A DNA stretch of 64,000 nucleotides, taken from contig WGND01000009.1 of assembly GCA_016124805.1 (NCBI GenBank), positions 1 to 64,000 of the forward strand, written 5' to 3'. Of the stretch, positions 42,203 through 58,764 are shown in pieces. The stretch is from Hyphomicrobiales bacterium (GTDB taxonomy: Bacteria > Pseudomonadota > Alphaproteobacteria > Parvibaculales > Parvibaculaceae). The position numbers and the translations under genes are program-made. The notes under the pieces were generated by a model. That model was not told the DNA's origin, made no database searches, and saw only the letters and a program-made list of their open reading frames with translations. The first letter of the stretch is position 1. Every line of letters begins with the position of its first letter.

Positions 42203-42261
42203 ATCGCTTCCCCGGCATCGCAGTCTCCCACTGGCGCATTCGCTCGTTATACTGCGCAGCC

Positions 42262-45168
42262 ATGTCAGACCCTCTTCCCACCGATTCGGCCCGCCCATCC
42301 GGGACCGGCCTTGTCCTGCCTGATGCCCCGGCCCTGCTTGCGCTGCGCGGGCGCCAGTCCAATGCGGCTGCGCTGGCGGTCACGTCCGATGGGGAAATTG
42401 ACGAACTGGGTCAGGATGCCGCCTTGCGGATGCTGGAGCATGACGCGGTGATGGTGGTGCATGCGGGCTTTACCGCCCGGCGCATTGCCGGGGCACAGGG
42501 CAATCTGCGCATTTCGCGGGAGCCGGGACCACGTGTCTTTGACCTGCTGGAACTCTTTGCCTTTGTCTATCCGGCGCAAGCCTGCCTGCCAACGCCGGAA
42601 GGACTTTGCAAGGCCCTCTCCATGCCGCCTGCCGCCTCGCCAGAGGATCTCGCACTGCAGTTCCACGAAGCCGCCGCCTACATGCTGAGCGCGCTAAGTG
42701 CGCGCAACTATCCCCATCGCCATCTGGCCGCCCGCACCGCCTTGCGCATGGCGCAGGGTGGCTGGTCATGGGGGCCGGGTGTGGTGGCAGCCCTTGCCGA
42801 TGTGATGCGCAGCGACGAACAGCTCGCCAAGGGGTCGGGCTTCGACATCTGGAACAATCTGCCCGAATGGGAAGAAAAAGCGCCGCGTGGTCCAGCCTCA
42901 TCGCTGCCGGTGAGTGGCGAGGACGCCGAGACACGGCTGATCGAACTTGCAGGCGAGAGCGCGGAGTCACGCCCGGGACAGCGCGAATTTACCCGTGTTG
43001 CAGCGGGCGCCTTTGCCCCGCGCGAGCGCGCCGGCGCAACCCATATCGTGCTCGCTGAAGCAGGCACCGGCATCGGCAAGACCATCGGCTATATCGCGCC
43101 TGCCAGTCTCTGGGCGGAGCGCAACAAGGGCACGGTCTGGCTTTCAACCTATACCAAGAACCTGCAACGGCAACTTGATCAGGAGCTGACGCGGCTCTAT
43201 CCCGATCCTGCCGAAAAAATAGAGAAGGCGGTTATCCGCAAGGGGCGGGAAAACTATCTCTGCCTGCTCAATTTCGCCGAGAGCGCTGACCGCGCGGCCA
43301 TTGGCGGTGGTGCCGTTTCCACCGGCCTTGTGGCGCGATGGGCACTGGCGAGCCGCGATGGCGACATGGTGGGGGGCGACTTCCCGGCCTGGCTTGCCCA
43401 GCGTCCTGCCGCCCAGAGCCTGACCGACCGGCGCGGCGAATGCGTCTATGCCGCCTGCCCCTATTACAAAAAATGCTTTATCGAAAAAGCCATTCGCAAG
43501 GCACAGCGTGCCGACATTGTGGTCGCCAATCATGCGCTGGTGATGCGCCAGGCCGCCGTTGACATGGCGGTGATGTCGCTCAACCCTGCCGCGCTTCGAC
43601 CAGCCGCCCCTGACATTTCTGCGGGTGCCGAAGATGAAGAACCCAGCGGGCGCGAAGCCCGCATGCGCTTTGTCTTTGACGAGGGCCATCATATTTTCGA
43701 TGCGGCGGACAGCGCCTTTTCGGCCCATCTTTCCATTATTGAAACAGCCGAATTGCGGCGCTGGATACGCGGCGCGGAAGGCCAGCGCGGGCGACGCGGG
43801 CGCGGCCTTGATGACCGCATCGGTGATCTCGTATCCGGTGATGCTGTTGCCGAGGAAGCGCTTGATGCGGCGCTGAGCGCGGCGGCGGCGCTGCCCGGTC
43901 CCGGCTGGCAGGCGCGGATGAATGACGGCACGCCAAGGGGGGCTGCTGAACAGTTTCTCGCGCTGCTGCGACAGCAGGTTCACGCCCGGTCGCGCGATGA
44001 GGATGCAGCCTATTCGCTCGAGACTGACATATTGCCCACGGTCGAGGGGCTGGATGAGGCCGCCAAGGCGCTGGAGACAGCGATCGGCAAACTGATTGCG
44101 CCGATGAAACTGCTCGCCGAGCGCATGCGCATTCGCCTCGATGAAGGGGCTGAAGAACTCGACAGCAGCATGCGTATCCGGCTTGATGCCGCCGCGCGCG
44201 GACTTGACCGGCGCGCCATGCTGTTGCTGCCGGCGTGGCGCTCCATGCTGGCCGGTATCGGGCAGGCGAGCGACAAGGATTTCTATGAATGGTTTGCCGT
44301 TGAGCGTCTGGCCGGTCGCGAAATCGATGCCGGTATGTATCGCCACTGGCGCGATCCGACGATCCCCTTTGCTGCCTCCGTGCTGGAAACAGCCCATGGG
44401 GTGCTGATTGCCTCCGCCACGCTGCGCGACGGCCTGCATCAGGACGCAGATGACGGGGAAAAATGGGAAAATGAAAGCTGGCAGAGTGCTGAAATCCGCA
44501 CCGGCGCCTCGCATCTGCCGCTGCCTGCGATTCGCGCCTTCATGGCGTCGCCCTTTGACTATCAAAAACAGGCACGCATTTTTGTGGTCAATGACATCAA
44601 CCGCAATGACATGGATGCGATTGCTGCGGCCTATCGTGCGCTCTTCATGGCGGCGGGTGGTGGCGCACTCGGCCTCTTCACGGCAATCCGCCGGCTCCGC
44701 GCCGTGCATGAGCGCATTTCAGGCGCGCTCGAAGCCGAGGGCCTGCCGCTCTATGCCCAGCATATGGATGGGCTCGACACCGGCACATTGGTTGATATCT
44801 TCCGGGCGGATCGGCATGCCTGCCTGCTGGGTACCGATGCCGTGCGCGACGGGGTGGATGTGCCCGGCGACTCGCTGCGCATGATCGTGTTTGACCGCAC
44901 CCCCTGGCCACGACCTGACCTGCTGCACAAGGCGCGGCGTGAAATTTTCGGCGGCGGGCGCTATGACGACATGCTGACCCGGCTAAGGCTGAAACAGGCC
45001 TTTGGCCGCCTGATCCGAACGGAAGCTGACCGGGGCGTCTTCGTCACACTCGACTCCCGCCTGCCGACCCGCCTGACCTCGGCCTTTCCACCGGGCCTGA
45101 CTGTGGAACGCGTGGGTCTGGCCGAGGCCATCGCCGCCTCGCGGGACTTTCTAGCCCAGCGGGACTGA
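42262..45168 (+). CDS. DinG-family ATP-dependent DNA helicase
   Basis: 968 residues, XPD/DinG superfamily 2 helicase. Walker A GTGIGKT at 268-274, Walker B DEGH at 473-476, and four cysteines (334, 394, 399, 405) spaced for the iron-sulphur cluster of this family. Motif VI is in the GRLIRTEADRG section near the end. Residues about 20-130 look like the remnant of a DnaQ-type exonuclease domain (VMVVHAGFTARR, RVFDLLELFAFVYP) without its acidic catalytic residues. Such N-terminal domains occur in DinG of other groups. It probably unwinds 5'-overhang DNA, R-loops or other repair substrates. Confidence 0.92.
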   Translation: MSDPLPTDSARPSGTGLVLPDAPALLALRGRQSNAAALAVTSDGEIDELGQDAALRMLEHDAVMVVHAGFTARRIAGAQGNLRISREPGPRVFDLLELFAFVYPAQACLPTPEGLCKALSMPPAASPEDLALQFHEAAAYMLSALSARNYPHRHLAARTALRMAQGGWSWGPGVVAALADVMRSDEQLAKGSGFDIWNNLPEWEEKAPRGPASSLPVSGEDAETRLIELAGESAESRPGQREFTRVAAGAFAPRERAGATHIVLAEAGTGIGKTIGYIAPASLWAERNKGTVWLSTYTKNLQRQLDQELTRLYPDPAEKIEKAVIRKGRENYLCLLNFAESADRAAIGGGAVSTGLVARWALASRDGDMVGGDFPAWLAQRPAAQSLTDRRGECVYAACPYYKKCFIEKAIRKAQRADIVVANHALVMRQAAVDMAVMSLNPAALRPAAPDISAGAEDEEPSGREARMRFVFDEGHHIFDAADSAFSAHLSIIETAELRRWIRGAEGQRGRRGRGLDDRIGDLVSGDAVAEEALDAALSAAAALPGPGWQARMNDGTPRGAAEQFLALLRQQVHARSRDEDAAYSLETDILPTVEGLDEAAKALETAIGKLIAPMKLLAERMRIRLDEGAEELDSSMRIRLDAAARGLDRRAMLLLPAWRSMLAGIGQASDKDFYEWFAVERLAGREIDAGMYRHWRDPTIPFAASVLETAHGVLIASATLRDGLHQDADDGEKWENESWQSAEIRTGASHLPLPAIRAFMASPFDYQKQARIFVVNDINRNDMDAIAAAYRALFMAAGGGALGLFTAIRRLRAVHERISGALEAEGLPLYAQHMDGLDTGTLVDIFRADRHACLLGTDAVRDGVDVPGDSLRMIVFDRTPWPRPDLLHKARREIFGGGRYDDMLTRLRLKQAFGRLIRTEADRGVFVTLDSRLPTRLTSAFPPGLTVERVGLAEAIAASRDFLAQRD

Positions 45169-45244
45169 GCCGCGCGCCTTGCCCATCGGCACCCAAATCC
45201 CTAAGCTGCGCCCGCTTCTTACTCTCTTTCTGTCAGGACCTCCC

Positions 45245-45655
45245 ATGTCAACGATCGCGCCGGAAAATGCCCTCATTTACATCATGGTCACGATGAGCGC
45301 CGTTGATAGCGCCATGGACGACAATGAATTGATGGAAATCGGCAGCATCGTGAAAGTCCTGCCAGTCTTCAGGGATTTCAATCCCGAGCGCATCATTCCG
45401 GTGGCAAAAGAATGCGCGGCGATCCTGCATGAGGATGGCGGACTGGATGCTGTTCTGGGTCTGGTCAAGGACGCGCTGCCGCTGCATCTGCGCGAAACGG
45501 GCTATGTGCTTGCCGTCGAAATTGCGGCTGCCGATCTCAATGTGTCAGCCGAGGAACTGCGCCTGTTGCAGCTGCTGCGCGATACGCTGGAAATCGACAA
45601 GTTGACGGCTGCCGCCCTTGAGCGCGGCGCGCGCGCGCGCCACATGACGATCTGA
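45245..45655 (+). CDS. TerB-family protein
   Basis: 136 residues from the ATG at 45245 with AGGA upstream. An all-helical TerB-like fold: ALIYIMVTMSAVDSAMDDNELMEI and GYVLAVEIAAADLNVSAEELRLL carry the two Asp/Glu metal-binding helix starts of the tellurite-resistance TerB/DjlA family. Its role outside tellurite operons is unclear; no other ter genes are near. Confidence 0.8.
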   Translation: MSTIAPENALIYIMVTMSAVDSAMDDNELMEIGSIVKVLPVFRDFNPERIIPVAKECAAILHEDGGLDAVLGLVKDALPLHLRETGYVLAVEIAAADLNVSAEELRLLQLLRDTLEIDKLTAAALERGARARHMTI

Positions 45656-45672
45656 GAAATACAGCCCGCGCC

Positions 45673-46431
45673 CTAGTCTTCGCAGGGGCCTGTGCCAGTC
45701 TCTTTCAGTTCCTCGCCGATCCGGTCAAAATAGGTTCGCTGGCAGATGCCATTTGCGCCATAGCGATCATGCTGGCGATGGGTCATCACCAGCACATCCT
45801 CATTATAAGTGTAGAAGTCGGTTTCATAATCGGCGGCGCTGCTGCGGTTTGTCGCGCGAATTTCCTGGGCTTCCATGTCAAAGATGGGTGAGCTGAGCTC
45901 ATCAAGGGCCGGATCAGGAACGAAGCTGTCGGCCATCATCGACCAGAGATAATTGGTATAAAATACATTGGCGCCGGGCGTTGTCTGCCGGATCAGCCGC
46001 AAATCGGCATAGCCGTCAAAATTCATGTCAAGCAGTTCAAAGCCGTTTGCCGCCAGCGCTGTTGGGGCAACGGAGTCGACAGGCTCAATGGTCTGGACGG
46101 GTGTGCCCTTGTCTTCCTGCGTGATTGTGATGGACTCAATGACGCGCAGATCGCTGGACGGTTTCAGATATCCCTGCAGCTTGAAGTCGAGAACGGGCAG
46201 GCCCGCACTGACAATGCCACGGCATGTCAAAGGCGGCGGCTTGAGGGCGGCTGCTTCCTCGCATTCATATATGAAAGGGGCGCTTTCTCCGCCTGCTTCA
46301 AGCGCATCGCCCAGCTCATGGCTCGGCAGCACCTCTCCGGCGTGGGCACATGACGCCGATACGCCGATAAGAAACAGCGCCATCATCGCGATGGCCGCCG
46401 CCTCAGGGAATATGCCCCTTATTCCGCCCAT
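45673..46431 (-). CDS. Secreted XAC2610-like protein
   Basis: 252 residues with a signal peptide (residues 1-31, ending CAHAGE). The centre has LLDMNFDGYADLRLIRQ followed by TNYLWSM, the pattern of the XAC2610-related family (a calcium-loop-like D-x-N-x-D-G-x-x-D segment). Related proteins include putative lysozyme inhibitors of the periplasm. Four or more cysteines. Convergent with the TerB gene. Confidence 0.7.
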   Translation of the reverse strand: MGGIRGIFPEAAAIAMMALFLIGVSASCAHAGEVLPSHELGDALEAGGESAPFIYECEEAAALKPPPLTCRGIVSAGLPVLDFKLQGYLKPSSDLRVIESITITQEDKGTPVQTIEPVDSVAPTALAANGFELLDMNFDGYADLRLIRQTTPGANVFYTNYLWSMMADSFVPDPALDELSSPIFDMEAQEIRATNRSSAADYETDFYTYNEDVLVMTHRQHDRYGANGICQRTYFDRIGEELKETGTGPCED

Positions 46432-46554
46432 TTTTATCCCGTCTTCAGAAAATCCAACAGGTGCTCAGGCGACGCGCTCTTTCTATTGGCGAACCGCAAG
46501 CCGATTTCGGCTAAGGTTCGCATAATGCCATAAAGTCAGGATGACCGCGACCCC

Positions 46555-47382
46555 ATGGACCAGTTCTTGATATCGCAGGAAGCCGGCATCAGGCTGATGG
46601 CCTTTGCAGCCGTGCTGGCCGTGATGATGGTGTGGGAGTTTCTGGCACCCCGTCGCGCTCAGGCTTTGCCGCGTCAGAAAAGATGGCCCACCAATCTGGG
46701 CCTGAGCCTGTTCAACACGGCACTGTTGCGAATTGCCGTGCCCGTGGCGGCGACAGGCGCGGCGCTCTGGGCGGCACAGGCTGGCGTGGGCCTCCTCAAC
46801 CAGACCGAGATGCCACTGGTGTTTGCCTATATCATCACCCTGCTTGCCCTCGACTTTCTCATTTATGCCCAGCATGTCCTGTTTCATCGGGTGCCGCTGC
46901 TCTGGCGCGTTCACAAGATGCATCATGCCGACACCGATCTTGATGTCACCAGCGGCATCCGCTTTCATCCCATCGAGATCCTGCTCAGCGTTGCGATCAA
47001 GATGGCGGCGATCATCGCGCTTGGCGCGCCTGCCGGTGCCGTGATCCTGTTTGAAATCCTGCTCAACGCCATGGCGATGTTCAATCATGCCAATATCAAT
47101 CTTGCGCCGGGCCTTGATCGTGTTTTGAGAAAAATCATCGTCACGCCGGACATGCACCGCGTTCATCACTCTGTGATACCGGCAGAGCATCATCGCAATT
47201 TCGGCTTTAACCTGTCGCTTTGGGATCGCCTGTTTCACACTTACATCGCCCAGCCGCGTGAAGGCCATCTCGGCATGAAAATCGGACTGACTGATTATCC
47301 GGGGCCACAGCCTGCTGAGTTCCTGTGGAACCTTGTGCTACCCTTCACCCGTGACATGCGCGAGGAGGAGAAAAAGGCATGA
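46555..47382 (+). CDS. Sterol desaturase/fatty acid hydroxylase family protein
   Basis: 275 residues, about four membrane helices, with the His clusters of the di-iron family: HVLFHRVPLLWRVHKMHH (about 108-124), FNHANI, and HRVHHS (about 203-208). It hydroxylates or desaturates a lipid in the inner membrane; substrate unknown. It overlaps the phosphatase gene by ATGA. Confidence 0.88.
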   Translation: MDQFLISQEAGIRLMAFAAVLAVMMVWEFLAPRRAQALPRQKRWPTNLGLSLFNTALLRIAVPVAATGAALWAAQAGVGLLNQTEMPLVFAYIITLLALDFLIYAQHVLFHRVPLLWRVHKMHHADTDLDVTSGIRFHPIEILLSVAIKMAAIIALGAPAGAVILFEILLNAMAMFNHANINLAPGLDRVLRKIIVTPDMHRVHHSVIPAEHHRNFGFNLSLWDRLFHTYIAQPREGHLGMKIGLTDYPGPQPAEFLWNLVLPFTRDMREEEKKA

Positions 47383-47906
47383 AGCGGCTTTGCCTTTTTC
47401 GGCATGCAAAATCTGACTGGCGCGACGCAGGCTTGAATGATTTCGAGCGGCCCCTGAATGAGCGCGGTCGCAAGGCGGCCGATTTCATGGCCCATTTCAT
47501 TGATCAATCGCAATGGCGTCCCGACGCCGTTCTCTGCTCCACAGCCGTGCGCGCGCGCGAAACTTTTGCGCCGCTGCAGGCACTTCTCGGCACCGGCATG
47601 CCCGTCCAGTTTATTGACAGGCTCTATCACGCCATGCCGGATGTGCTGCTGGAGGTGATCCACGCCGAAGCATCCGATGATGCCGACACATTGCTTGTCA
47701 TCGCCCATAATCCGGGACTGGCGCTCATGGCTGCCGACCTTGCCCCGGCTGAGACAGACGAGGCGATGGCGCATGGTGACGGCATGCCGACGGGCGGCTT
47801 CATCGTTTTTGAATTTGATGTCGACCATTGGCGCGATGTGAAGGAACATCAAGGACGCCTCGTCTTCTTCGGCAAGCCGCGCCAGCTAATGGCCGAGGCC
47901 AAATAG
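47379..47906 (+). CDS. SixA-like histidine phosphatase family protein
   Basis: 175 residues of the branch-2-like short histidine phosphatases: LFRHAKSDW holds the catalytic RHxK/G motif at residues 8-11, and IAHNPGL carries the second His. SixA of E. coli removes phosphate from Hpt domains; relatives have other substrates. The start overlaps the desaturase stop. There is a (degenerate) Hpt-type protein 5 kb upstream, but no link is proven. Confidence 0.85.
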   Translation: MKRLCLFRHAKSDWRDAGLNDFERPLNERGRKAADFMAHFIDQSQWRPDAVLCSTAVRARETFAPLQALLGTGMPVQFIDRLYHAMPDVLLEVIHAEASDDADTLLVIAHNPGLALMAADLAPAETDEAMAHGDGMPTGGFIVFEFDVDHWRDVKEHQGRLVFFGKPRQLMAEAK

Positions 47907-47910
47907 CCGT

Positions 47911-48930
47911 CTAGTAAATGCTCTGGCTGAAATAGCGATTGCTGATGGCGGCATAGGAGCCATCCGCCACCATGCCCGCCAGCGCCGCATTCATGCGGTC
48001 GCGCAACGCCCCGTTTTCGGCCTTGAGGGCGATGCCTGCGCCCTGCCCGAAATAGGCGGGGTCTGCATAATCAGACCCGACAAGCCTGCAGCATGCAGCA
48101 CCTTTGCCAGCGATCGTCCAGCGCAAGAGTGCATTGCGGTCGGCAAAGACAAGATCAGCCTCACCTGCGGCAAGTGCCGTTTCCAGCGCCTTTAAGGACC
48201 CGAGTTCCACGCGCTGAATATCGGAGAAATGGGTCTTCAGATAGGCCATGTGGACGGAGCCTGCCTGCACGGCAACTTTTTTGCCGCGCAGAGCCTCAGG
48301 TGAGGCCGCCGCTGGCACCTTGTCGCGGCGGGCGGCAAAGTGACCCGGCGTGCCGTAATAACGCTCGGTGAAGATCACGTCATTGAGGTTCTTCACATTC
48401 TCGCGCGCCTTTGAGGGGCGCAGCAGGGAGGCAACCACCGCATCGGCCTTTCCTGCTTCGAGGCGCGGAATGAGGTCGGCCCAAGGCGCGGCCTCGATGC
48501 GGCATTCGGCATCAAGACGCTGGCAAAGTGCCCGGGCCAGATCGACATCAAAGCCTGTGAGATCGCCCGATGCCGTCTTGAAGTTGAAGGGCGGATAGGC
48601 GCCTTCAGTCAGGATCAGGAGTTTTTCCCTGGGCGCCTCGATTGTCTTCTCATCCGGGCGTGCCGGGTTCGGAAATGGCAGATGCAACTGGCTCAGCGTT
48701 GCTTCATCCAGCGGCGCTTGTGGCTCATCTGAAGGGGCGGGCACAAGCTCATCAGGCATCGGCACAATGTCATCGCGCGCCACTGTCGTGGTCTCTGCCG
48801 CGGCTAAGGTCGCATCAAGCTGGCCTTGCGGTGCCAAAAGCCAGTCCAGCGGCGCGCCGGTGTAAAATTTCCCCAGGGCCCCGGCGAGCAGAACAATGGC
48901 CAGTAGATTGAGGTAAATCAGGTAACGCAT
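47911..48930 (-). CDS. Membrane-anchored solute-binding domain protein
   Basis: 339 residues from the ATG at 48930, where a hydrophobic N-terminus begins (LIYLNLLAIVLLAGALGKFY); it reads as an anchor or uncleaved signal. A Pro/Asp/Glu-rich linker follows (about 45-95). Residues about 105-335 are a family-3 periplasmic solute-binding domain (TEGAYPPFNFK...LTGFDVDLARALC; LRGKKVAVQAGSVH). No ABC permease or ATPase is near, so it is an orphan receptor or sensor. Confidence 0.8.
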   Translation of the reverse strand: MRYLIYLNLLAIVLLAGALGKFYTGAPLDWLLAPQGQLDATLAAAETTTVARDDIVPMPDELVPAPSDEPQAPLDEATLSQLHLPFPNPARPDEKTIEAPREKLLILTEGAYPPFNFKTASGDLTGFDVDLARALCQRLDAECRIEAAPWADLIPRLEAGKADAVVASLLRPSKARENVKNLNDVIFTERYYGTPGHFAARRDKVPAAASPEALRGKKVAVQAGSVHMAYLKTHFSDIQRVELGSLKALETALAAGEADLVFADRNALLRWTIAGKGAACCRLVGSDYADPAYFGQGAGIALKAENGALRDRMNAALAGMVADGSYAAISNRYFSQSIY

Positions 48931-49190
48931 CGGGACCCAGCTCTTTTCGGCGAGACATTCGCGGCAGCTTCCTAGCATGCGCAATGCTGTTTCTTTATGA
49001 AACAGTCCGCCCGCCAGGGGAAATAGTATTGGCCTCAAGGCCGCTTCTGCCCCTTTTAACGCAATGGCCATGCCATGCAGGCGGCGCACAAGGTACCGGA
49101 TTATGGGTCATTCTTGCTATCCGCCATATTTTACCATAAAACAAAAATGCAGAGTTCATTTGGCACGATGGTGCAGAATGGAGGCGTGGG

Positions 49191-51143
49191 ATGTCCGGTC
49201 GAGGGGACGGCGACAGGCATGTGCGGCAGCAGCCCGCCAAGCGACGCCCCTTGTCCGGCGACACAAGGCAGCGCCGACGCAAGCACCTTCTGATGGGCGA
49301 ACTTGCCCTTGCGCGCGGACTGATCGCTCCTCACGAGCTCCTGCCTTTGCTGGGTCTGCAAAAAAAATGGGGCACCAGACTGGGCCCCACCCTTCTTTCT
49401 TCAGGTCACGCAACGCCGCATGACATTGCGCGGCTTGTCGCCACGCAGCGCGACCTGCCCCTGATAAATCTGCGCCACGAGCCGCCCGATGCAGCCCTGC
49501 TGCGCGCAAATGACATCGCCTTCTATCTGGCGCATCACTGTCTGCCCTGGCGGCGCGTCAACGGCGAAGTGGTCTATGTGGCGGCTGATCCTGTCGAAGC
49601 CGCAAAGATCATTGCCCAGCGCAATGGACGCCTTGCACGCATCCATGTGGCGTCGGCGCGCGACATCCAGAAAACTGTCGCCGCGCATTTTGGTGAGGAA
49701 CTCAGCGAGCTGGCGATCCATGGCCTCGAGCGCACGCATGCGACATTTTCGGCCTCGCGACGTACCACGCCTTCGCAGGACATATGGATCGGGTGCCTCG
49801 CACTGCTCACCCTCGCTGCCCTGTTATTCGCACCGGACTCAAGCCTGGTAGCTTTGAACGTCATTCTGGGGTCCTGCTTTCTCGGCATCGGGGCGTTGCG
49901 GCTGCTATCCATCCTGATCGGCCTGACCGCTGCACCCAGTGCGGAACAGCGCGCCTTTGCCCAATCCCGACCGGTCGCTGATTGCGACTTGCCGATCTAT
50001 ACGATCATCGTGCCGCTGTTCAGGGAATCTGCGGTGCTGCCAGTCATTGCACATGCCCTGCAACGGCTTGACTATCCCGCCGCCAAGCTCGACATCAAAC
50101 TTGTCTTTGAGGAAAGTGATCCGCAAACCTATGCGGATGCCAAGGCGCTGAACCTGCCCGGTCACATCGAATTCATCCGTGTACCCGACAGTCTTCCCCG
50201 CACCAAGCCCAAGGCCTGCAATTACGCGCTCCCCTTTGTACGCGGCCGCTATGCCGTCGTTTATGATGCCGAGGATATGCCCGAGCCGGATCAATTGCGC
50301 AAAGCCATCGCCGCGTTCGATCTCGGCGACCCGAGGCTTGCCTGCGTGCAGGCCCAGCTCAATTATTACAACTGGAACGAGAACTGGCTGACCCGACAAT
50401 TCGCACTTGAATATGCCGCCTTTTTCGATCTGCTTCTGCCGGCGCTGGACCAGTTGCGCCTGCCGATACCGCTCGGCGGCACGTCGACCCATTTCCGTGT
50501 TGATGCGCTGCGGGCCTGCGGCGGCTGGGATGCCTATAATGTGACGGAGGATGCCGATCTCGGGATACGCCTGAGAGTGCTTGGCTATCGCTGCGGCATC
50601 ATCAATTCAACGACGCAGGAAGAAGCCAATTGCCGACCCGGCAACTGGATCCGGCAACGCTCACGCTGGGTGAAAGGCTGGGTACAGACCTATCTGGTGC
50701 ATATGCGTCATCCGGTGAGCCTGTTTCGTGCGCTTGGCTGGCGGGGCTTCCTCGGCTTTCAGCTGGTGATCGGCGGCTTCAGCCTTTCCAATCTCGTCCA
50801 TCCTTTTTTTTATGCCGTGCTTGTTAACCATGTTTTTCTGAACCATGGCAGCGAAACGGATATGCCGCTGGTCATCTTCAATCTGGTGGTGCTGGTCTCC
50901 GGCTACAGCCTGACCATCATCGCGGGCATGGTGGCGGTGTCGCGGCGCGGGCTGGTACGCCTCATTCCCTCCGCCCTCAGCCTGCCCGCCTATTGGCTGC
51001 TGATATCGCTGGCCTCCTACAAGGCGCTGTATCAATTCGTAACGCGGCCCTTTCACTGGGAAAAGACCGATCACGGCCTCAGCCGCATGAAACTGCCCGA
51101 CATCCAGATTGCAAAAGAGCCCCGCTCGATAACCAATCACTAA
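49191..51143 (+). CDS. GT2 glycosyltransferase with N-terminal MshEN-like domain
   Basis: 650 residues; GGAGG is six bases before the ATG. Residues 33-175 follow the GspE/MshE N-terminal pattern: LLMGELALARGLI, then TRLGPTLLSSG, the RLGxxLxxxG segment used by MshEN domains to bind c-di-GMP. After membrane helices (198-245) comes a processive family-2 transferase domain (265-495) with DAED (359-362), TED (452-454) and QRSRW (489-493), as in cellulose-synthase-like enzymes. More helices follow (about 510-620). It should polymerise a beta-glycan at the inner membrane, with c-di-GMP control by inference. A response regulator follows 59 bp downstream. Confidence 0.88.
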   Translation: MSGRGDGDRHVRQQPAKRRPLSGDTRQRRRKHLLMGELALARGLIAPHELLPLLGLQKKWGTRLGPTLLSSGHATPHDIARLVATQRDLPLINLRHEPPDAALLRANDIAFYLAHHCLPWRRVNGEVVYVAADPVEAAKIIAQRNGRLARIHVASARDIQKTVAAHFGEELSELAIHGLERTHATFSASRRTTPSQDIWIGCLALLTLAALLFAPDSSLVALNVILGSCFLGIGALRLLSILIGLTAAPSAEQRAFAQSRPVADCDLPIYTIIVPLFRESAVLPVIAHALQRLDYPAAKLDIKLVFEESDPQTYADAKALNLPGHIEFIRVPDSLPRTKPKACNYALPFVRGRYAVVYDAEDMPEPDQLRKAIAAFDLGDPRLACVQAQLNYYNWNENWLTRQFALEYAAFFDLLLPALDQLRLPIPLGGTSTHFRVDALRACGGWDAYNVTEDADLGIRLRVLGYRCGIINSTTQEEANCRPGNWIRQRSRWVKGWVQTYLVHMRHPVSLFRALGWRGFLGFQLVIGGFSLSNLVHPFFYAVLVNHVFLNHGSETDMPLVIFNLVVLVSGYSLTIIAGMVAVSRRGLVRLIPSALSLPAYWLLISLASYKALYQFVTRPFHWEKTDHGLSRMKLPDIQIAKEPRSITNH

Positions 51144-51202
51144 AGAAATTCTGCGACCATCCCCTCAACAATTGCCGTCTGATTCTGATCAAGGACCTGA
51201 CT

Positions 51203-51712
51203 TTGTCTCATATTTCCTTCACAACCACGCTGCCGCTCGAAACCTACAGGCAATTGGGTGTCCTGGTTGTCGAGGATTCACCCCATATGGCATCGATGCT
51301 GCGCATCATCCTGAATGAGCTTGGGGTGACACGCATCTGGTCGGCACGCAGTGGCGAGGATGCCCTGGGCGTCTTCTCGCGTCACAGCGTCGATATTTCG
51401 GTGATTGATGAACTCGAGCCGCCTCTTGATGGCCTTTCCATCGTGCGCGCCATCCGCATGGCGGAAACTGATGATCTGCAGCGCGTGCCTGCGATCTATC
51501 TGACGACGCAGCGCTCGCGCGAGGAGATTATCGCTGCGCGCGATGCCGGCGTGACCGAAATTCTCTCCAAACCTTTTTCAGCTGCCCAATTTGTCGCGCG
51601 ACTGGAAACCGTGCTGAAGCGCCCGCGCCCGATCATCAAAAGTGAAAATTTCATCGGCCCGGACCGTCGTCGCCGCGAACAAGGCGCGACGGACGAACGC
51701 CGCAAGGGCTGA
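51203..51712 (+). CDS. Response regulator (receiver domain, GPDRRRR tail)
   Basis: 169 residues from a TTG at 51203, chosen because AAGGA lies seven bases upstream and no ATG occurs before the conserved core. Single receiver domain: acidic pair Glu24/Asp25 (VVEDSP), phospho-acceptor Asp69 (SVIDELEP), and Lys123 (LSKPFS). The C-terminal tail FIGPDRRRR is a motif shared by a group of alphaproteobacterial receivers. No output domain, so it acts by binding a partner. Likely co-transcribed with the glycosyltransferase. Confidence 0.88.
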   Translation: MSHISFTTTLPLETYRQLGVLVVEDSPHMASMLRIILNELGVTRIWSARSGEDALGVFSRHSVDISVIDELEPPLDGLSIVRAIRMAETDDLQRVPAIYLTTQRSREEIIAARDAGVTEILSKPFSAAQFVARLETVLKRPRPIIKSENFIGPDRRRREQGATDERRKG

Positions 51713-51757
51713 CAGGCATTGAGCGAATGTCCGTTCTGACGGTCGGGCATTTGGGGT

Positions 51758-51831
51758 TGGAGCGGGTGAAGGGAATCGAACCCTCGTCGTAAGCTTGGGA
51801 AGCTTCTGCTCTACCATTGAGCTACACCCGC
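51758..51831 (-). tRNA. tRNA-Gly(UCC)
   Basis: 74 nt with encoded CCA. GCGGGTG pairs with CACCCGC for the acceptor stem; D-arm GCTC-GAGC; anticodon loop CTTCCCA with anticodon UCC (reads GGA/GGG); T-loop GTTCGATTC closed by GAGGG/CCCTT. It lies between the response regulator and the DUF2804 gene. Confidence 0.96.
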
Positions 51832-51875
51832 CTCGCCTCATGTTTAGCCTGCGGCACTGTCTCCGGCAAGCATCC

Positions 51876-52895
51876 TTACCAGCGGTTCTGCACTTCTTCG
51901 GCAAAGCCCAGAATATCCGCAATCTCGAGCCTGCGCCCGTCATCCAGAACCACGCTGCCTGAAAAGCGGCCAAAGACCTGATGCTGGATGGACCGCAGAA
52001 GGTCCAAATTCATATTGGCCGCGCGGTCGATGATGGGCGCGAAATTCATTTCAAAGCGGCCATCATTGCTGGTGAACCGCCAGGGCGCCGCATCATAGCC
52101 TTCCGGCGGGATGTGGAAGGTGACGGCCTCAAGCTTGTGGGCCCTGCCGTCATAAAACAGCATGTTCTCCGAGGCGGCGGATGTGTCGCCGAAGCCATAA
52201 CCGATATTGAAGCCGAAGGGTCTGCCTTCGTGATGGCCCGACGCCGAGCCCCAATACCAGGTGTTGTCATAGGTCCAGACACCACGACCCCAGTCCAGCA
52301 CGGCGGAGGCCGTTGCCGGATCAAACACGAAGGATTTTCCATCGAAAACAACCGTGCCTTCAGCAGGCATGCAGTTGATCTTTTGATTGTAATAAAAGGC
52401 GCGCGGCGCTTTGGCAAAGGGGGTGGCAATCACCATGCGATCCATCGCCGGCTGGCTGAGCGTGACATCGACCTTGAGGCCCTTGCCCTTGCCAAAGCCC
52501 GGGCAATCCATCGACAGGTGCCGGGCTTCAGGCGCGAGACGAAAGGCCATGTTCATTCTGGGGTGGGTCTGGACGATGTCATCGGCATCGGCCGTTTCGG
52601 GTAGCCCCATGCGCCCCATCGGGAAAGGGATCAGAATGCTTTCGGTTGTTTCTTTCGGGGTGGCCAAATCCATCCAGGTGGCCGAGAGCAGACCCATATA
52701 GCCATTATCAGCGACTGTCAGCGCCAGACCGTGGTCTTCGCTCAGCACACAGTAATAGTCCCATTCCTTGATCCGCAGGGATGAGGCCCCCACCGAGGCG
52801 CGCCGATAGCGCTTCACTTCCGATGTCGCAAAGCCTGCTTCCTGCAGATGCCCTCTGGCATCCAGCAGGTCACCCGGACCAAGTTCGCGCTGCAT
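51876..52895 (-). CDS. DUF2804 protein
   Basis: 339 residues from the ATG at 52895 with AAGGGAAA upstream; the longer frame runs into the divergent gene. YYNQKINCMPAEG and DWGRGVWTYDNTWYWGSASG are the typical DUF2804 segments; the protein is beta-rich with many tryptophans, and has no signal peptide. The family is uncharacterised, though its fold resembles lipocalin-like carotenoid hydratases. It is divergent from a radical SAM gene (82 bp). Confidence 0.85.
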   Translation of the reverse strand: MQRELGPGDLLDARGHLQEAGFATSEVKRYRRASVGASSLRIKEWDYYCVLSEDHGLALTVADNGYMGLLSATWMDLATPKETTESILIPFPMGRMGLPETADADDIVQTHPRMNMAFRLAPEARHLSMDCPGFGKGKGLKVDVTLSQPAMDRMVIATPFAKAPRAFYYNQKINCMPAEGTVVFDGKSFVFDPATASAVLDWGRGVWTYDNTWYWGSASGHHEGRPFGFNIGYGFGDTSAASENMLFYDGRAHKLEAVTFHIPPEGYDAAPWRFTSNDGRFEMNFAPIIDRAANMNLDLLRSIQHQVFGRFSGSVVLDDGRRLEIADILGFAEEVQNRW

Positions 52896-52977
52896 GTCGT
52901 TTCCCTTTTTTGCCCAATCTACCCCCGCTCGCAAGAATGTGAATGGTGAAAATGGGGGCGGCTGATAGTCTGACGGC

Positions 52978-53919
52978 ATGAATATTTCGATCCCCCCTGC
53001 CAAATTCAGCGACCCCGATGTGACGGCGAAGGGCGAGACCCGCGCGCATGTGGCACTGGTGCAGCTCGAAACGCTCTGGATCAATACCGGCACACTCTGC
53101 AACATCGAATGCGCCCATTGCTATATTCATTCCAGCCCGACGGATGATCGCCTGAGCTATTTCACGCTGGCTGACACCCTGATTTTTCTCGACGAGATCG
53201 AGCGTGAGGAACTGGGCACGAAAGAGATCGGTTTTACCGGTGGCGAACCCTTCATGAACCCGGACATGCTGGCCATGGCGGAGGCTGCACTGGCGCGTGG
53301 CCATCAGGTGCTGATCCTGACCAATGCCATGCAGCCGCTGATGCGACCCAAAATCCGCGACGGTCTCCTGGCCCTCAAAAGCCGCCATGGCACGGCCCTG
53401 CGCCTGCGCATCAGCATCGACCATTACAGCGAAACGCTCCACGACGCCGAGCGCGGCGCGGGTGCCTTTGAAAAAACGCTGACCGGGCTCAAATGGCTGG
53501 CCGGGGAAGGCTTCTCCCTCACCATTGCCGGGCGCACGGCGCCGGGCGAAAGCGAGACTGATGAGCGCGCGGGCTATGCTGCCCTTTTTGCGCGGGAAGG
53601 GATCGACCTTGATCCACATGACCCGTCGATGCTCATCGTTTTTCCGGAAATGGACGAAACGACAGACGTGCCTGAAATCACCACCGCCTGCTGGGATATT
53701 CTCAACGTCAATCCCGACAACATGATGTGTGCGACGAGCCGCATGGTGATCAAACGCAAGGGCGCGGCAGGGCCTGCTGTCGTGGCGTGTACCCTGCTGC
53801 CGGATGATCCACAATTTGAACTGGGCCAGACGCTGAAAGAGGCTTCGGGGCCCATTAAACTCAACCACCGCCATTGCGCAAAATTCTGCGTGCTGGGCGG
53901 GGCAAGCTGTTCGGGCTAG
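52978..53919 (+). CDS. Radical SAM protein of unknown function
   Basis: 313 residues. The radical SAM cluster motif C-x3-C-x2-C is at Cys41, Cys45 and Cys48 (CNIECAHCY), then GFTGGEPF for SAM binding. More cysteines near the C-terminus (271, 300, 304, 311 in VVACTLLP and HRHCAKFCVLGGASC) look like an extra iron-sulphur site, reminiscent of SPASM/twitch-type enzymes. No peptide substrate gene was seen close by. It ends in an overlapping stop codon with convergent lrgB. Confidence 0.87.
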   Translation: MNISIPPAKFSDPDVTAKGETRAHVALVQLETLWINTGTLCNIECAHCYIHSSPTDDRLSYFTLADTLIFLDEIEREELGTKEIGFTGGEPFMNPDMLAMAEAALARGHQVLILTNAMQPLMRPKIRDGLLALKSRHGTALRLRISIDHYSETLHDAERGAGAFEKTLTGLKWLAGEGFSLTIAGRTAPGESETDERAGYAALFAREGIDLDPHDPSMLIVFPEMDETTDVPEITTACWDILNVNPDNMMCATSRMVIKRKGAAGPAVVACTLLPDDPQFELGQTLKEASGPIKLNHRHCAKFCVLGGASCSG

Positions 53920-54638
53920 CTGAACAGCAACCATATGACCGGCAGCAACAGCGCCGTGATGATGCCGTTGAGCGTCATCGCCACGCCTGAAAATGTGCCC
54001 GCCTCCCAGCTCACCTGAAAGGCGCGCGCCGTGCCGATGCCATGCGCGGCAATGCCCATGGCAAAGCCGCGCGCGCGCGGGTCCTTGATGCCGAGCGCGT
54101 TAAAAATCCAGCTCCCGAAAACCGCACCGATGGCACCTGTGAAAATCACGAAAACGGCAGCGAGCGCCGGAATGCCCCCGATCTGGTCCGCGATGCCCAT
54201 GGCGATGGGTGTGGTGACGGATTTGGGTGCAAGGGATGAGATGGTTTCAGGGCTTGCGCCGAGCGCCATGCCGATCAGCACGGCGGAAAGCACGGCCGTG
54301 AGCGAGCCCGCCAACAGGGCTACAAACATGGGTCGGGCGACGGATCGCACCTGCCTGAAGTTCAGGTAAAGCGGGATGGCCAGCGAGACGGTCGCAGGCC
54401 CCAATATCCACAAGAGCCATTGCCCGCCATCATTGTAGTGATCGTAATCGCGCCCGCTCAGCATCATCAGGCCGATAATGACGGCGCTCGCGAGCAATAC
54501 GGGATTGATCAGCGGATTGCCGTTCAGGCGCTGCTGCAAATTGCGGAACAGCATATAGGCAAGCAGGGTCAGACCGATCCAGACAAGACCCTCCCCGACC
54601 CGGTCCCAATAGACCGGTTGCCATGCGATATCGCTCAT
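53916..54638 (-). CDS. lrgB: LrgB family protein
   Basis: 240 residues with about six or seven membrane helices; ASSLAPKSVTTPIAMGIA is the family signature. LrgAB/CidAB proteins modulate murein hydrolase activity, cell lysis or small organic acid transport. The start overlaps the lrgA stop (ATGA), and its stop TAG shares CTAG with the stop of the radical SAM gene on the other strand. Confidence 0.92.
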   Translation of the reverse strand: MSDIAWQPVYWDRVGEGLVWIGLTLLAYMLFRNLQQRLNGNPLINPVLLASAVIIGLMMLSGRDYDHYNDGGQWLLWILGPATVSLAIPLYLNFRQVRSVARPMFVALLAGSLTAVLSAVLIGMALGASPETISSLAPKSVTTPIAMGIADQIGGIPALAAVFVIFTGAIGAVFGSWIFNALGIKDPRARGFAMGIAAHGIGTARAFQVSWEAGTFSGVAMTLNGIITALLLPVIWLLFS

Positions 54639-55018
54639 GGCTCGCCCTCACGCGAGGCGTCCTTTTTCTGCATCCACTGGAAGACCAGCGCGCCGACAAC
54701 AAGCGAGAGAAAGGTGGAGCCGAAAAGGGCAGCGATAATGGGGATCAGGTCCTGCCGCACCAGCGCGACATGGGCCATGATGCCAATGGCGGCGGGGATG
54801 TAGAACAGGTTGAGGTGGCGCAGCAGATATTCCGCGACGACACGCAACGGCCCGGGAACGCGCCCCCAATAGATCAGCACAGCCAGCATCAAAAGAATGC
54901 CGATCACCGTGCCCGGCACCGGCAGATGGAGCGTGCGCGACAGCAGCGCGCCGATGATCTGGCAACCGGCGAGCGTTGCAAAGGCGGCCAGCCATCCGAT
55001 GATCTGCTGACGCTGCAT
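54635..55018 (-). CDS. lrgA: CidA/LrgA family holin-like protein
   Basis: 127 residues, four membrane helices (GWLAAFATLAGCQIIGALL, PVPGTVIGILLMLAVLIY and others), matching CidA/LrgA; LPVPGTVIG is the conserved segment. Its start is two bases after the dcd stop codon and it overlaps lrgB. Confidence 0.9.
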   Translation of the reverse strand: MQRQQIIGWLAAFATLAGCQIIGALLSRTLHLPVPGTVIGILLMLAVLIYWGRVPGPLRVVAEYLLRHLNLFYIPAAIGIMAHVALVRQDLIPIIAALFGSTFLSLVVGALVFQWMQKKDASREGEP

Positions 55019-55020
55019 CC

Positions 55021-56181
55021 TCAGATCGCTCTGAAATGCTTGGAGAGCTTGAGGCGCTGGTTCTGATAATTGGAATGGAGGCTTTCGCCATAAAGACTGG
55101 CGGGCCGGTCTGTCAGGCGCTCATAAACGAGACGCCCGATGATCTGTCCATGTTCCAGAATGAAGGGCACGTCATGGCTGCGCACTTCCAGCACCGCGCG
55201 GCTGCCGGCACCCCCTGCCTCGCGGGCACCAAAGCCGGGATCAAAGAAGCCTGCATAATGGACACGGAATTCACCCACCAGCGGATTATAGGGCACCATT
55301 TCAGCGGCATGGGAGGCGGGCACCTGCACGGCTTCGCGCGAGGCGAGAATATAGAATTCATCCGGGTCCAGAATAAGTCCCTTGCCGCCGCGGCTGTGGA
55401 TCGGTTCCCAGAAATCGAGCACGTCATAGCCGTCACGCTTGTCGACATCGATGAGACCGGCATGGCGCTTGGCGCGAAAACCGACACGGCCGCCTTCACG
55501 CTCGGGCCGCAGATTGACCGTCAGGGCAATGCCATTGTCGATATCAACATCGCCATCAACGAGGCGTACCTCTTCCTGCAGACGTTTCAGTTCCGCATCG
55601 CTGAATGTGGCGCTGCCACGGCGGAACCGGATTTGCGAGAGGCGCGAGCCGGGACGCACGAGAATGGGAAAAGTCCGCGGGGAAATTTCAAGATAGAGAT
55701 GACCTTTGTAGCCCGCCGCGACCTGATCGAACTCGGCGGAAAAATCGGTGATGACACGCGTGAAGACATCCAGACGCCCGGTGGAGCTTTTGGGATTTGC
55801 TGCCGCGCTCGTACGCTCCGAAAGCGCCAGCGCTTCAATCAGCGGGACGAGATAGACGCAACCGGTCTCCAGCACGGCCCCTTCGCTCAGGTCGATTTTG
55901 TGGAGCATCAACTCCTCAACCCGCTCCATGACGCCGCGATCGGGGCCGGGCAGAAAGCTTGCCCGCAAGCGGTAGGCCGTGTTGCCCAGCCGCATGTCGA
56001 GGCTTGCCGGCTGGATCTGGTCCTTGTCGATCTCGCGGCTTGCCCAGATTTCCTTTTCGCGGATCATGGCGGCAATCGCATGCGAGGGCAGGATACCCGT
56101 GGTGTGGACCTGGCCCGGGCCCACACGGCGCGGTTCCATGTCTTCATGATGTGGGAAAAGATCGTCCGCCGCCTTGGTCAT
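55021..56181 (-). CDS. dcd: 2'-deoxycytidine 5'-triphosphate deaminase, long form
   Basis: 386 residues from the ATG at 56181 (AGGAAG just upstream; 56184 is an alternative). It is about twice the length of classical dCTP deaminase: two related dUTPase-fold modules (QPASLDMRLGN in the first, HYAGFFDPGFG in the second). This two-module form occurs in alphaproteobacteria. It supplies dUTP for dTMP synthesis. First gene of an operon with lrgA and lrgB. Confidence 0.9.
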   Translation of the reverse strand: MTKAADDLFPHHEDMEPRRVGPGQVHTTGILPSHAIAAMIREKEIWASREIDKDQIQPASLDMRLGNTAYRLRASFLPGPDRGVMERVEELMLHKIDLSEGAVLETGCVYLVPLIEALALSERTSAAANPKSSTGRLDVFTRVITDFSAEFDQVAAGYKGHLYLEISPRTFPILVRPGSRLSQIRFRRGSATFSDAELKRLQEEVRLVDGDVDIDNGIALTVNLRPEREGGRVGFRAKRHAGLIDVDKRDGYDVLDFWEPIHSRGGKGLILDPDEFYILASREAVQVPASHAAEMVPYNPLVGEFRVHYAGFFDPGFGAREAGGAGSRAVLEVRSHDVPFILEHGQIIGRLVYERLTDRPASLYGESLHSNYQNQRLKLSKHFRAI

Positions 56182-56339
56182 CATTCTTCCTGGGCTCAAA
56201 AAGGCCTGATCCGGCCCGCCAAAGGCCCGTTATAGTGCCCCCAAGGCGCCACTGAAAGCCCTCTCTGGCCGAAGGCTTTGCTTGCCGCCGGGGCATTACA
56301 GCCTAATTCTATGTCTATCAGAGCGCCGAGGGAGGCCCC

Positions 56340-56738
56340 ATGACCTATATCATCGCCTATATCGCCACGGCTGTCGTTTTTTTCGGTCTGGATTTTCTCT
56401 GGCTCGGCAGCATTGCCAAGGATTTCTACGCCCGCGAGATGGGCGCCCTGCTGCGGCCCAAGCCCAATATGGGGATCGCCGCCCTCTTCTATCTCGGCTA
56501 TGTGGGCGGCATTGTCTATTTCGCCGTCCTGCCCTCAATCCAATCGGGCAGCCTTGGTACGGCAGCGCTTTCCGGCCTGCTTCTGGGCCTCATAGCCTAT
56601 GGCACCTATGATGTGACCAATCTGGCAACGCTTAAGAACTGGCCTGTCACCATGTCGCTGGTGGACATGGCCTGGGGGTCAGTGCTGACATCCATTGCCG
56701 CCATGGCCGGACATCTGGCCCTGCGGCTCTGGGGATAG
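56340..56738 (+). CDS. DUF2177 membrane protein
   Basis: 132 residues, four membrane helices. VFFGLDFLWLGSIAKDFY, YGTYDVTNLATLKNWP and VDMAWGS are the conserved DUF2177 segments. GGGAGG is five bases upstream of the ATG. Function unknown. Confidence 0.88.
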   Translation: MTYIIAYIATAVVFFGLDFLWLGSIAKDFYAREMGALLRPKPNMGIAALFYLGYVGGIVYFAVLPSIQSGSLGTAALSGLLLGLIAYGTYDVTNLATLKNWPVTMSLVDMAWGSVLTSIAAMAGHLALRLWG

Positions 56739-56789
56739 GTTCAACGCTTGACGCGCGCGCCCATTGCCCCTTAAATGCGCCCCAACACC

Positions 56790-56841
56790 CGTGGTGATTT
56801 GAGCCGACCGGCTTGCGGCCACGTTAAACAAATCGCTAAAA
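56790..56841 (+). ncRNA. SAM-II riboswitch
   Basis: The aptamer P1 stem is CGTGG (56790-56794) with CCACG (56819-56823). The pseudoknot is GATTTG (56796-56801) with CAAATC (56829-56834). The conserved AGCCGACCGGCTTGC and GTTAAACAAATCGCTAAA segments are intact. SAM-II binds S-adenosylmethionine and represses methionine genes in alphaproteobacteria; the next gene is metZ. Confidence 0.95.
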
Positions 56842-56842
56842 A

Positions 56843-56871
56843 GGTCGGGTATGCGTACCCCCGATCTTTTT
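56843..56871 (+). terminator. SAM-II expression-platform terminator
   Basis: GGTCGGG pairs with CCCGATC (one G-U), followed by TTTTT. It starts one base after the aptamer, so SAM binding can be coupled to premature termination. A further G-run and T7 tract (about 56876-56889) follow. Confidence 0.8.
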
Positions 56872-56921
56872 GCTGGTCGGGGTTTTTTTATTGCGCATTT
56901 CGGCTCAGAAACGGCAAGCCC

Positions 56922-58121
56922 ATGACACAGACATCCGACACATCCAAACGCAACTGGCATCCGCGCACCTCGGCTGTGCATGGCGGGACCGCGCGCACCC
57001 CCTTTTGCGAAACCAGCGAGGCGCTGTTTCTGACGTCGGGCTATGTCTATGACTCCATGGAAGCCGCCGAGCGCCGCTTCAAGAATGAAGAGCCGGGCTA
57101 TGTCTATAGCCGCTTCGGCAATCCGACAGTGCGCATGCTGGAAGAACGCATGGCAGCACTTGAGGGCGCGGATGATGCGCGCGCCACAGCCACCGGCATG
57201 GCGGCCGTGACGGCAGCCATGCTCTGCCAGCTCAAGGCGGGGGATCATGTGCTTTCATCGCGCGCGCTCTTCGGCTCCTGCCGCTATATCGTGGAAGAAT
57301 TGCTGCCGCGCTTCGGGGTCACATCGACGCTGATCGACGGGCGCGATCTTGACGCGTGGAAGAAAGGCATCCAACCCAACACCAAGGTCGTGTTTCTGGA
57401 ATCGCCCTCCAACCCGACGCTCGAAGTGATTAACATCCGGGCGGTGGCGGAGATCGCCCATGCCGCAGGTGCGCGCCTCGTCATCGACAATGTTTTTGCA
57501 ACGCCCGTGCTCCAGCATCCGCTGAAGCTTGGTGCCGATGTCGTCGTCTATTCGGCGACCAAACATATTGACGGCCAGGGACGCTGCCTTGGCGGCGTGA
57601 TCCTGGCCGATCAGGCCTTCATCACCGACCATCTGGCCAATTTCCTGCGCCAGACCGGTCCCTCCATCAGCCCCTTCAATGCCTGGGTCATGCTGAAAAG
57701 CCTTGAGACGCTCGATCTGCGCATTCGCGAGCATGGCCGCAATGCCGAGCTTGTGGCCGCCAGCCTCGAAGGCCATGAGAAAATCGGCAAGGTTTTCTAC
57801 CCGGGTCTCAAGAGCCATCCCCAGCATGAACTCGCCATGAGCCAGATGTCGCAGGGCGGCAACATGATCGCCTTTGAGGTCAAGGGCGGCAAGGACGCTG
57901 CCTTCCGTTTCGCCAATGGGCTGGAGATCATCAAGATTTCCAACAATCTGGGCGACGCCAAAAGCCTGATCACCCATCCGGCAACAACCACACATCAACG
58001 GCTGAGCCCTGAGGCCCGTGCCGAACTCGGCATTGATGAAGGCTTGCTGCGGCTTTCGGTTGGTCTGGAAGACGGGCAGGATCTGGTCGCCGACATCGCC
58101 CAAGCGCTGGCTCGCGTTTAG
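56922..58121 (+). CDS. metZ: O-succinylhomoserine sulfhydrylase
   Basis: 399 residues from the ATG at 56922; an upstream frame would run through the riboswitch. Cys/Met-metabolism PLP enzyme: YSRFGNPT, YSATKHIDGQGR with the PLP-binding Lys, and SLGDAKSLI-like NLGDAKSLITHPATTTH. It makes homocysteine directly from O-succinylhomoserine and sulfide in the cytosol. Its control by SAM-II supports the role. Confidence 0.95.
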   Translation: MTQTSDTSKRNWHPRTSAVHGGTARTPFCETSEALFLTSGYVYDSMEAAERRFKNEEPGYVYSRFGNPTVRMLEERMAALEGADDARATATGMAAVTAAMLCQLKAGDHVLSSRALFGSCRYIVEELLPRFGVTSTLIDGRDLDAWKKGIQPNTKVVFLESPSNPTLEVINIRAVAEIAHAAGARLVIDNVFATPVLQHPLKLGADVVVYSATKHIDGQGRCLGGVILADQAFITDHLANFLRQTGPSISPFNAWVMLKSLETLDLRIREHGRNAELVAASLEGHEKIGKVFYPGLKSHPQHELAMSQMSQGGNMIAFEVKGGKDAAFRFANGLEIIKISNNLGDAKSLITHPATTTHQRLSPEARAELGIDEGLLRLSVGLEDGQDLVADIAQALARV

Positions 58122-58130
58122 GCGGCGCCC

Positions 58131-58150
58131 GGCTCACGCAAAGGTGAGCC
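58131..58150 (+). terminator. Hairpin after metZ
   Basis: GGCTCAC/GTGAGCC, 7 perfect pairs, 6-nt loop, nine bases after the metZ stop. There is no T-run, so it may stabilise the mRNA end and not stop transcription. Confidence 0.4.
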
Positions 58151-58309
58151 ATGCCGCAGACCTGACGTGGAAATGCCTCTATTTTGCCGGAGTTCCAGCG
58201 TTAATTGAGCATTAGACAGTTTGACGTAATGTCCACGAACGCCGCAAAGGCGGCACCAGAAGGGTGCTGAATGCAGGTGGGCAAGGTTTTACGCGCCAAG
58301 GAAAGAGCG

Positions 58310-58702: not shown

Positions 58703-58764
58703 TCAGCGCGCCTTCCACAGGCTAGAATGGCGCAACTGTCATTCGCCCCTGTCCGAGGTCTTTC

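Follow-up and report, generated by a model that had tools for sequence, protein, structure and literature searches.

The window analysed here, a 64,000-nucleotide stretch of DNA from a Hyphomicrobiales bacterium (family Parvibaculaceae), encodes a membrane synthase in which a c-di-GMP-type MshEN domain precedes a GT2 core and, directly behind it on the same strand, a single-domain receiver of the Cle type, and this arrangement is kept in most genomes of the order in which it was looked for. On balance, we favour the reading that the two genes specify a c-di-GMP-controlled exopolysaccharide synthase and a genetically coupled Cle-type c-di-GMP effector (features in Table 1). The fusion of MshEN to GT2 enzymes is already known; as far as the open papers show, the new part is the conserved coupling with a Cle-type receiver, and no description of a Cle protein paired with a glycosyltransferase was found in open-licence PMC full text.

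Table 1. Features of the synthase–receiver pair, with positions counted from the first letter of the window.
Feature	Position	Strand	Basis
MshEN-GT2 membrane synthase gene, 650 aa	49191..51143	+	Open reading frame, Pfam, fold model
MshEN_N, tandem 24-residue c-di-GMP motifs (predicted), residues 34-86	49290..49448	+	Residue alignment, entropy test, NF053729 below cut-off
MshEN_C, residues 87-175	49449..49715	+	Pfam MshEN best stretch 88-172; model
GT-A catalytic core, residues ~258-505, with DAED, TED, QRSRW	49962..50705	+	Pfam, motifs, PDB match
Shine-Dalgarno-like AAGGA, seven bases before TTG 51203	51191..51195	+	Read from sequence
Cle-type single-domain receiver gene, 169 aa from TTG 51203	51203..51712	+	Response_reg; start by inspection; kept downstream of synthase
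D69, presumed phosphorylatable Asp of receiver	51407..51409	+	Read from sequence
R113, helix-4 Arg, position equivalent to CleD R113	51539..51541	+	Sequence; excerpts of PMC5677366
Arg-rich C-terminal stretch of receiver, FIGPDRRRREQGATDERRKG	51650..51709	+	Motif definition in excerpts of PMC5677366

The synthase open reading frame has no internal stop, and its ATG lies six bases beyond a Shine-Dalgarno-like GGAGG (49180–49184). Pfam assigned Glyco_trans_2_3 (81.4 bits) and Glyco_tranf_2_3 (72.1 bits) to the encoded protein, and the motifs DAED (residues 359–362), TED (452–454) and QRSRW (489–493) were kept across the aligned relatives, one of which (L046) has MED in place of TED. An AlphaFold model built with 61 related sequences had a mean pLDDT of 92.3, and its top PDB matches were BcsA/bacterial cellulose synthase and hyaluronan synthase. 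Pfam, motifs and fold models thus bear out the proposal of the earlier note that an MshEN domain is fused to a processive GT2 enzyme with all catalytic motifs. From family, motifs and fold model, we infer that the GT2 core with its membrane helices would polymerise sugar and export the polymer through the inner membrane, much as cellulose and hyaluronan synthases do. The best PDB match, BcsA, has the GT2 core in common with the window synthase. The c-di-GMP site of BcsA is a PilZ domain, whereas the window enzyme has MshEN; no bcs genes were seen at the locus, and membership of the cellulose synthases was rejected (NCBIfam CelA, 45.6 against a cut-off of 699.1). The synthase is a core gene of the order: of 40 genomes, 38 gave a match at E ≤ 1e-60 and the others are 57% and 70% complete. 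A second copy is present in two genomes (G015 and G019). In two other genomes the gene is split at different places (L036 in G008, L057 in G033), with inserts bearing ISXO2/IS1595-type transposases, and these are two separate events. The genome that bears the window (G000; 3.2 Mb, 20 contigs) encodes eight GGDEF and seven EAL domains.

The MshEN domain of the synthase scored 48.5 bits in Pfam (cut-off 23.1, E 8.8e-13). When modelled alone (pLDDT 95.1), the N-terminal domain matched first the c-di-GMP-bound structures of PilF and MshE (5htl), and the Foldseek comparison with 5htl (E 1.0e-7, TMt 0.76) identified an MshE-like fold. The published MshEN motif, RLGxx(L/V/I)(L/V/I)xxG(L/V/I)(L/V/I)xxxxLxxxLxxQ, occurs twice (excerpts of PMC5013675). 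This canonical form is not kept in both halves of the window domain jointly: motif I starts with LMG in place of RLG and ends at Gln57, and motif II starts with RLG, ends at Gln86 and fits the pattern except at the first of the hydrophobic pair after the second Gly (HA). The string RLGPTLLSSG, previously singled out as the c-di-GMP-binding MshEN segment, represents only the second of the two 24-residue motifs. The NCBIfam c-di-GMP motif model NF053729 gave 30.1 bits with the window synthase, below its cut-off of 38, and was matched at E ≤ 0.01 by all 28 aligned members.

Conservation within the domain was uneven. At the position of MshE Arg9, 25 of the 32 aligned family sequences, including that of the window, have Leu and none has Arg, and at the position of Arg38 an Arg is retained in 16 of the 32. 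The six Gly and Gln positions of the motifs had a mean entropy of 0.13 bits in 29 family orthologues, against 1.68 bits elsewhere in residues 34–86, and none of 20,000 random six-position sets was as conserved; in 70 other relatives the values were 1.96 and 2.47 bits (the family group was counted without L040, L041 and L048 and the other group without L061, L062 and L063; L065 was too short for alignment). In MshE, the R9A substitution costs 83% of binding (excerpts of PMC4624772), and Arg9 packs against the guanine via side-chain atoms (excerpts of PMC5013675), a packing that Leu might replace. NfrB of E. coli, which binds c-di-GMP with a Kd of 1 µM (excerpts of PMC8669469), has Pro at the Arg9 position in our alignment. 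With near-invariant Gly and Gln positions on the one hand and Leu in place of the motif I Arg on the other, we consider binding of c-di-GMP by the synthase MshEN to be likely, not certain.

The receiver gave a Response_reg match of 63.1 bits (E 3.4e-17). It had been described as a TTG-initiated single-domain receiver; domain and codon stand, but the start at TTG 51203, which leaves 59 bases between the two genes, is likelier than that at TTG 50993, which falls 150 bases within the synthase gene. D69, T101 and K123, which we take to be the residues of a phosphorylatable receiver, are retained. The tail, NFIGPDRRRREQGATDERRKG, contains [YF]xGP[DE][RK]R, which in tandem forms the core of the c-di-GMP-binding Arg-rich region (ARR) of the Cle proteins described by Nesper et al., with an Arg before the motif, an Asp after it and a contributing Arg in helix 4; in CleD, R113 and R156 are 43 residues apart (excerpts of PMC5677366). 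FIGPDRR (51650–51670) fits this motif in the window receiver, and the second copy is degenerate (DERR). The helix-4 Arg lies within ARDAG and is present in 27 of 27 aligned receivers, and its distance to the second Arg of the motif is likewise 43 residues, as judged from the published CleD positions and not from an alignment; given a start at 51203, even the numbering coincides with R113 and R156. Tails of the own genus mostly read FTGPDRRRR..KRRESD or similar, the second copy being KRR..D in most own-genus members and full or near-full in genus g3. By itself the ARR pattern is no rarity at the DNA level: the own genome contains 15 matches to it, compared with 8 to a reversed control pattern. 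It carries weight only through its position at the receiver end and its conservation. Among the translated matches listed, two were ARR-bearing receivers: that of the window and a second one with a complete tandem motif (G000:C7:346829-347290). The GPDRRRR tail seen in the earlier note is indeed present; it had not been recognised as a described c-di-GMP-binding signature, and this changes the likely role of the receiver. CleA and CleD can dispense with their phosphorylation residues and require c-di-GMP binding (excerpts of PMC5677366). Motif, spacing and flanking residues together point to a Cle-type protein whose Arg-rich tail would bind c-di-GMP.

The earlier note had suggested checking whether the pair co-occurs across genomes, and it does: a receiver lies directly 3' of the synthase on the same strand in 33 of the 37 order genomes examined (own genus g1, 25/25; g3, 7/7; g5, 1/1; g4, 0/2; g2, 0/2), a count that omits G005, with a synthase fragment at a contig end, and G020 and G034, in which no synthase was found. 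A tail-bearing receiver occurs within 2.6 kb downstream at 29 of the 39 loci read as sequence, namely all 25 loci of the own genus and all 4 read from g3, with the ARR motif in the GT-linked receiver throughout, and receiver identity between genera falls to about 38%. The ten loci without a tail match comprise two paralogue loci, g5, two of g4, two of g2 and three of other families; the tail of the g5 receiver reads HMGPERR, which the search pattern missed. A second receiver stands in tandem at four g1 loci, at all four g3 loci read and in all three further g3 genomes (G061–G063). The g2 synthase orthologues (L055, L056) have neither MshEN nor a receiver. Two other genes follow them, one for a small membrane protein and one for a GH17-like protein, whose best PDB match in the case of L055 is the beta-1,3-glucanosyltransferase 4wtp (E 3.7e-18); this hints at a beta-glucan product, and is seen only in the lineage that lost MshEN.

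Beyond the family the pair is scarce. A class-wide sample of 387 genomes contained 46 with the synthase at E ≤ 1e-90, of which 40 lie outside the family. Of 38 such outside loci, a few on short contigs, none had a single-domain receiver directly downstream; in 3 of these 38 a larger receiver protein follows an XagC-like gene. At the remaining two loci (L041, L058), no receiver with the tail was seen within 2.6 kb. At least 591 synthase relatives turned up in a scan of named genomes; the best 80 loci, from several phyla, were kept, and 7 of these had a receiver within 100 bases of the synthase. Four of these come from genomes already counted and three (L064, L081, L129) from new MAGs outside the family. 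All three have an eroded MshEN pocket; L064 and L081 have the receiver tail (with Cys for Asp), which in L129 is degenerate.

The annotated genes of the stretch 40400–59937 include no further polysaccharide gene, in agreement, as far as this stretch goes, with the earlier statement that no bcs or other polysaccharide genes are present. Conserved across the family upstream of the pair are genes for a DinG-like helicase, a TerB-like protein, a fatty-acid hydroxylase, a SixA-like histidine phosphatase (47379–47906, + strand in the window) and, divergent from the synthase, a membrane-anchored SBP_bac_3 protein (47911–49089, − strand), whose longest open reading frame probably starts too far upstream (domain at 159–388 of 392). 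Downstream of the pair, most of the genus has genes for an acyl-CoA-ligase-like and a BCCT-like protein (the DinG, SixA, ligase and BCCT names were assigned by eye from sequence); in the window DUF2804 and other genes replace these two and the receiver is retained. Just 3' of the receiver, on the opposite strand, lies a tRNA-Gly (CCC) gene (51758–51831, − strand). A histidine kinase gene (40400–42202, + strand) encodes an HATPase domain, a HisKA match of 23.9 bits, below the cut-off of 26.9, and a C-terminus that by eye looks Hpt-like and has no usual His motif; it may be a pseudokinase. This kinase, 9 kb upstream, the divergent SBP and the SixA-like gene were rejected as parts of the system, being conserved neighbours for which position is the sole evidence. 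A promoter scan returned 0 promoters, and a terminator scan returned 4 terminator-like sites where 2.6 are expected, which is not clearly above chance.

Elsewhere in the genome, unlinked to the synthase locus, is a single XagA-like gene (L141, G000:C8:15489-16283), of a kind found in 22 of 22 genomes searched; it adjoins a threonyl-tRNA-synthetase-like gene (named by eye) and one for a 572-aa protein. The encoded protein could be the outer-membrane partner of the synthase, so that synthase and receiver need not be the whole pathway. Beside the second synthases of G015 and G019 lie XagA- and XagC-like genes, and no receiver with the tail follows them. The idea of a minimal c-di-GMP-controlled polysaccharide system is partly supported: the conserved pair agrees with it, and the XagA-like gene elsewhere suggests that the system may be larger. 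Fusions of this kind are already known from XagB and Sfz2 and, with the domains reversed, from NfrB.

The closest known systems are XagB of Xanthomonas and Sfz2 of Mariprofundus, which have an N-terminal MshEN/T2SSE_N and a C-terminal GT2 domain at a similar length. The window synthase belongs to this type by its MshEN-GT2 order, full-length homology and DxD, TED and QxxRW motifs. It shares 44% identity over query residues 30–632 with a Xanthomonas homologue (L069), identified as XagB from its context and not from annotation, and 42–43% with Mariprofundus homologues (L070, L072). XagB-dependent polysaccharide has been linked to the HD-GYP protein RpfG (excerpts of PMC3609779), Sfz2 is an EpsE-like domain plus GT2 protein of the Mariprofundus stalk cluster (excerpts of PMC8250860), and Wang et al. 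had already noted MshEN fused to glycosyltransferases (excerpts of PMC5013675). In contrast to the XagB and Sfz2 genes, which adjoin XagA-like and XagC-like (or BcsB-like) genes, the window synthase has no xagA-, xagC- or bcsB-like gene adjacent to it and is followed by a Cle-type receiver. The earlier note had regarded a conserved association with a known polysaccharide locus as evidence against its proposal: relatives elsewhere do lie in such loci (xag-type operons, the Mariprofundus stalk cluster or with BcsB next door), and none adjoins the window pair. Nine alphaproteobacterial xag-type operons (L066, L067, L068, L071, L073, L076, L077, L078, L080) carry a receiver protein of 313–460 aa after the XagC-like gene; receivers beside XagB-type synthases thus come in more than one form. 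By eye this larger protein resembles a receiver joined to a degenerate GGDEF, of which Pfam finds the receiver alone.

NfrB is likewise a c-di-GMP-activated GT2 enzyme with MshEN (excerpts of PMC8669469), but its domains are reversed relative to the window synthase, similarity in the GT region is weak (24% over 453 columns) and its operon has NfrA/YbcH; membership was rejected (15.8 bits against 1170 for the NCBIfam equivalog). The window receiver resembles CleA–E of Caulobacter in being a single receiver with an Arg-rich C-terminus bearing [YF]xGP[DE][RK]R, a helix-4 Arg and the same spacing, and differs from them in that its gene stands behind a polysaccharide synthase and, in the own genus, in its degenerate second motif.

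According to the reading we favour, the receiver would bind c-di-GMP through its Arg-rich tail and then dock on a target, and the operon would, as we hold likeliest, couple polymer production to the flagellated state, with the Cle protein either gating the synthase a second time through c-di-GMP or carrying the same signal to the motor. Activation, receiver–synthase contact and the polymer are all predictions from the evidence above. The lost Arg of motif I, the NF053729 score below cut-off and the degenerate second ARR copy in the own genus count against the favoured reading, as do the two g4 genomes, which retain the synthase and flagella but have no receiver beside it. The receiver is tied to flagellated genomes, and few independent events lie behind this pattern. 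FliM was found in 35 of the 40 order genomes and in 32 of the 33 that bear the pair; the exception, G016, has FliG, so that its missing FliM is probably an assembly gap. Neither g2 genome has a linked receiver or an MshEN domain on its synthase, and in the complete one, G027, FliM and FliG are both missing. These observations, together with the action of the studied Cle proteins on the flagellar switch (excerpts of PMC5677366), speak for an alternative in which the receiver binds FliM like CleA and CleD, and not the synthase, the shared operon serving co-expression of motor control and polymer synthesis. We give this somewhat less than an even chance, because no receiver is linked to the synthase in two g4 genomes that do have flagellar genes, the g2 loss concerns one lineage only, and the receivers beside the eroded-MshEN synthases of L064, L081 and L129 would fit a role at the synthase, although the tail of L129 is itself degenerate. 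A tentative proposal to which we grant a similar standing is that the Cle protein acts on the synthase directly, as an allosteric partner, so that two sensors, the internal MshEN and the separate Arg-rich tail, gate the enzyme.

The MshEN domain might no longer bind c-di-GMP and serve for docking or structure, leaving the receiver alone, or nothing, to sense the signal. The loss of the Arg9 position in most of the family and of Arg38 in half of the aligned sequences, the binding defect of MshE R9A and the NF053729 result favour this, but we think it unlikely, as Gln57, Gln86 and the four Gly are near-invariant within the family, unlike in other relatives, NfrB binds without an Arg at the Arg9 position, and Leu might take over the guanine packing. 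It is more doubtful still that the receiver controls the synthase through phosphorylation, as an ordinary response regulator would, and that its Arg-rich tail is incidental: the phosphorylation residues of the receiver and the larger receivers of the xag-type operons in other Alphaproteobacteria would suit such a role, and yet the tail motif persists at every own-genus and g3 locus read despite the low receiver identity between genera, and no kinase gene adjoins the pair. Least probable to us is a chance neighbourhood, in which an XagB-type synthase and an unrelated receiver are held together by the general synteny of the genus. The helicase, SixA-like and SBP neighbours are conserved too, so that synteny alone could explain part of the adjacency; against this, the receiver stays where the window genes beyond it differ from most of the genus, and the pair extends across three genera, includes tandem receiver duplications and recurs in three MAGs outside the family.

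Overall, the favoured reading of a c-di-GMP-controlled synthase coupled to a Cle-type effector suggests that synthesis of a sugar polymer and swimming may both answer to a single signal. The window MshEN provides a pocket without the Arg of motif I in which to ask what c-di-GMP binding requires. The family-wide adjacency of Cle protein and synthase raises two questions that lend themselves to direct experiment: do Cle proteins have targets beyond the motor, and does a single operon link control of the motor to synthesis of a surface polymer? If the receiver were a direct partner of the synthase, the Cle family would gain a target outside the flagellar motor.
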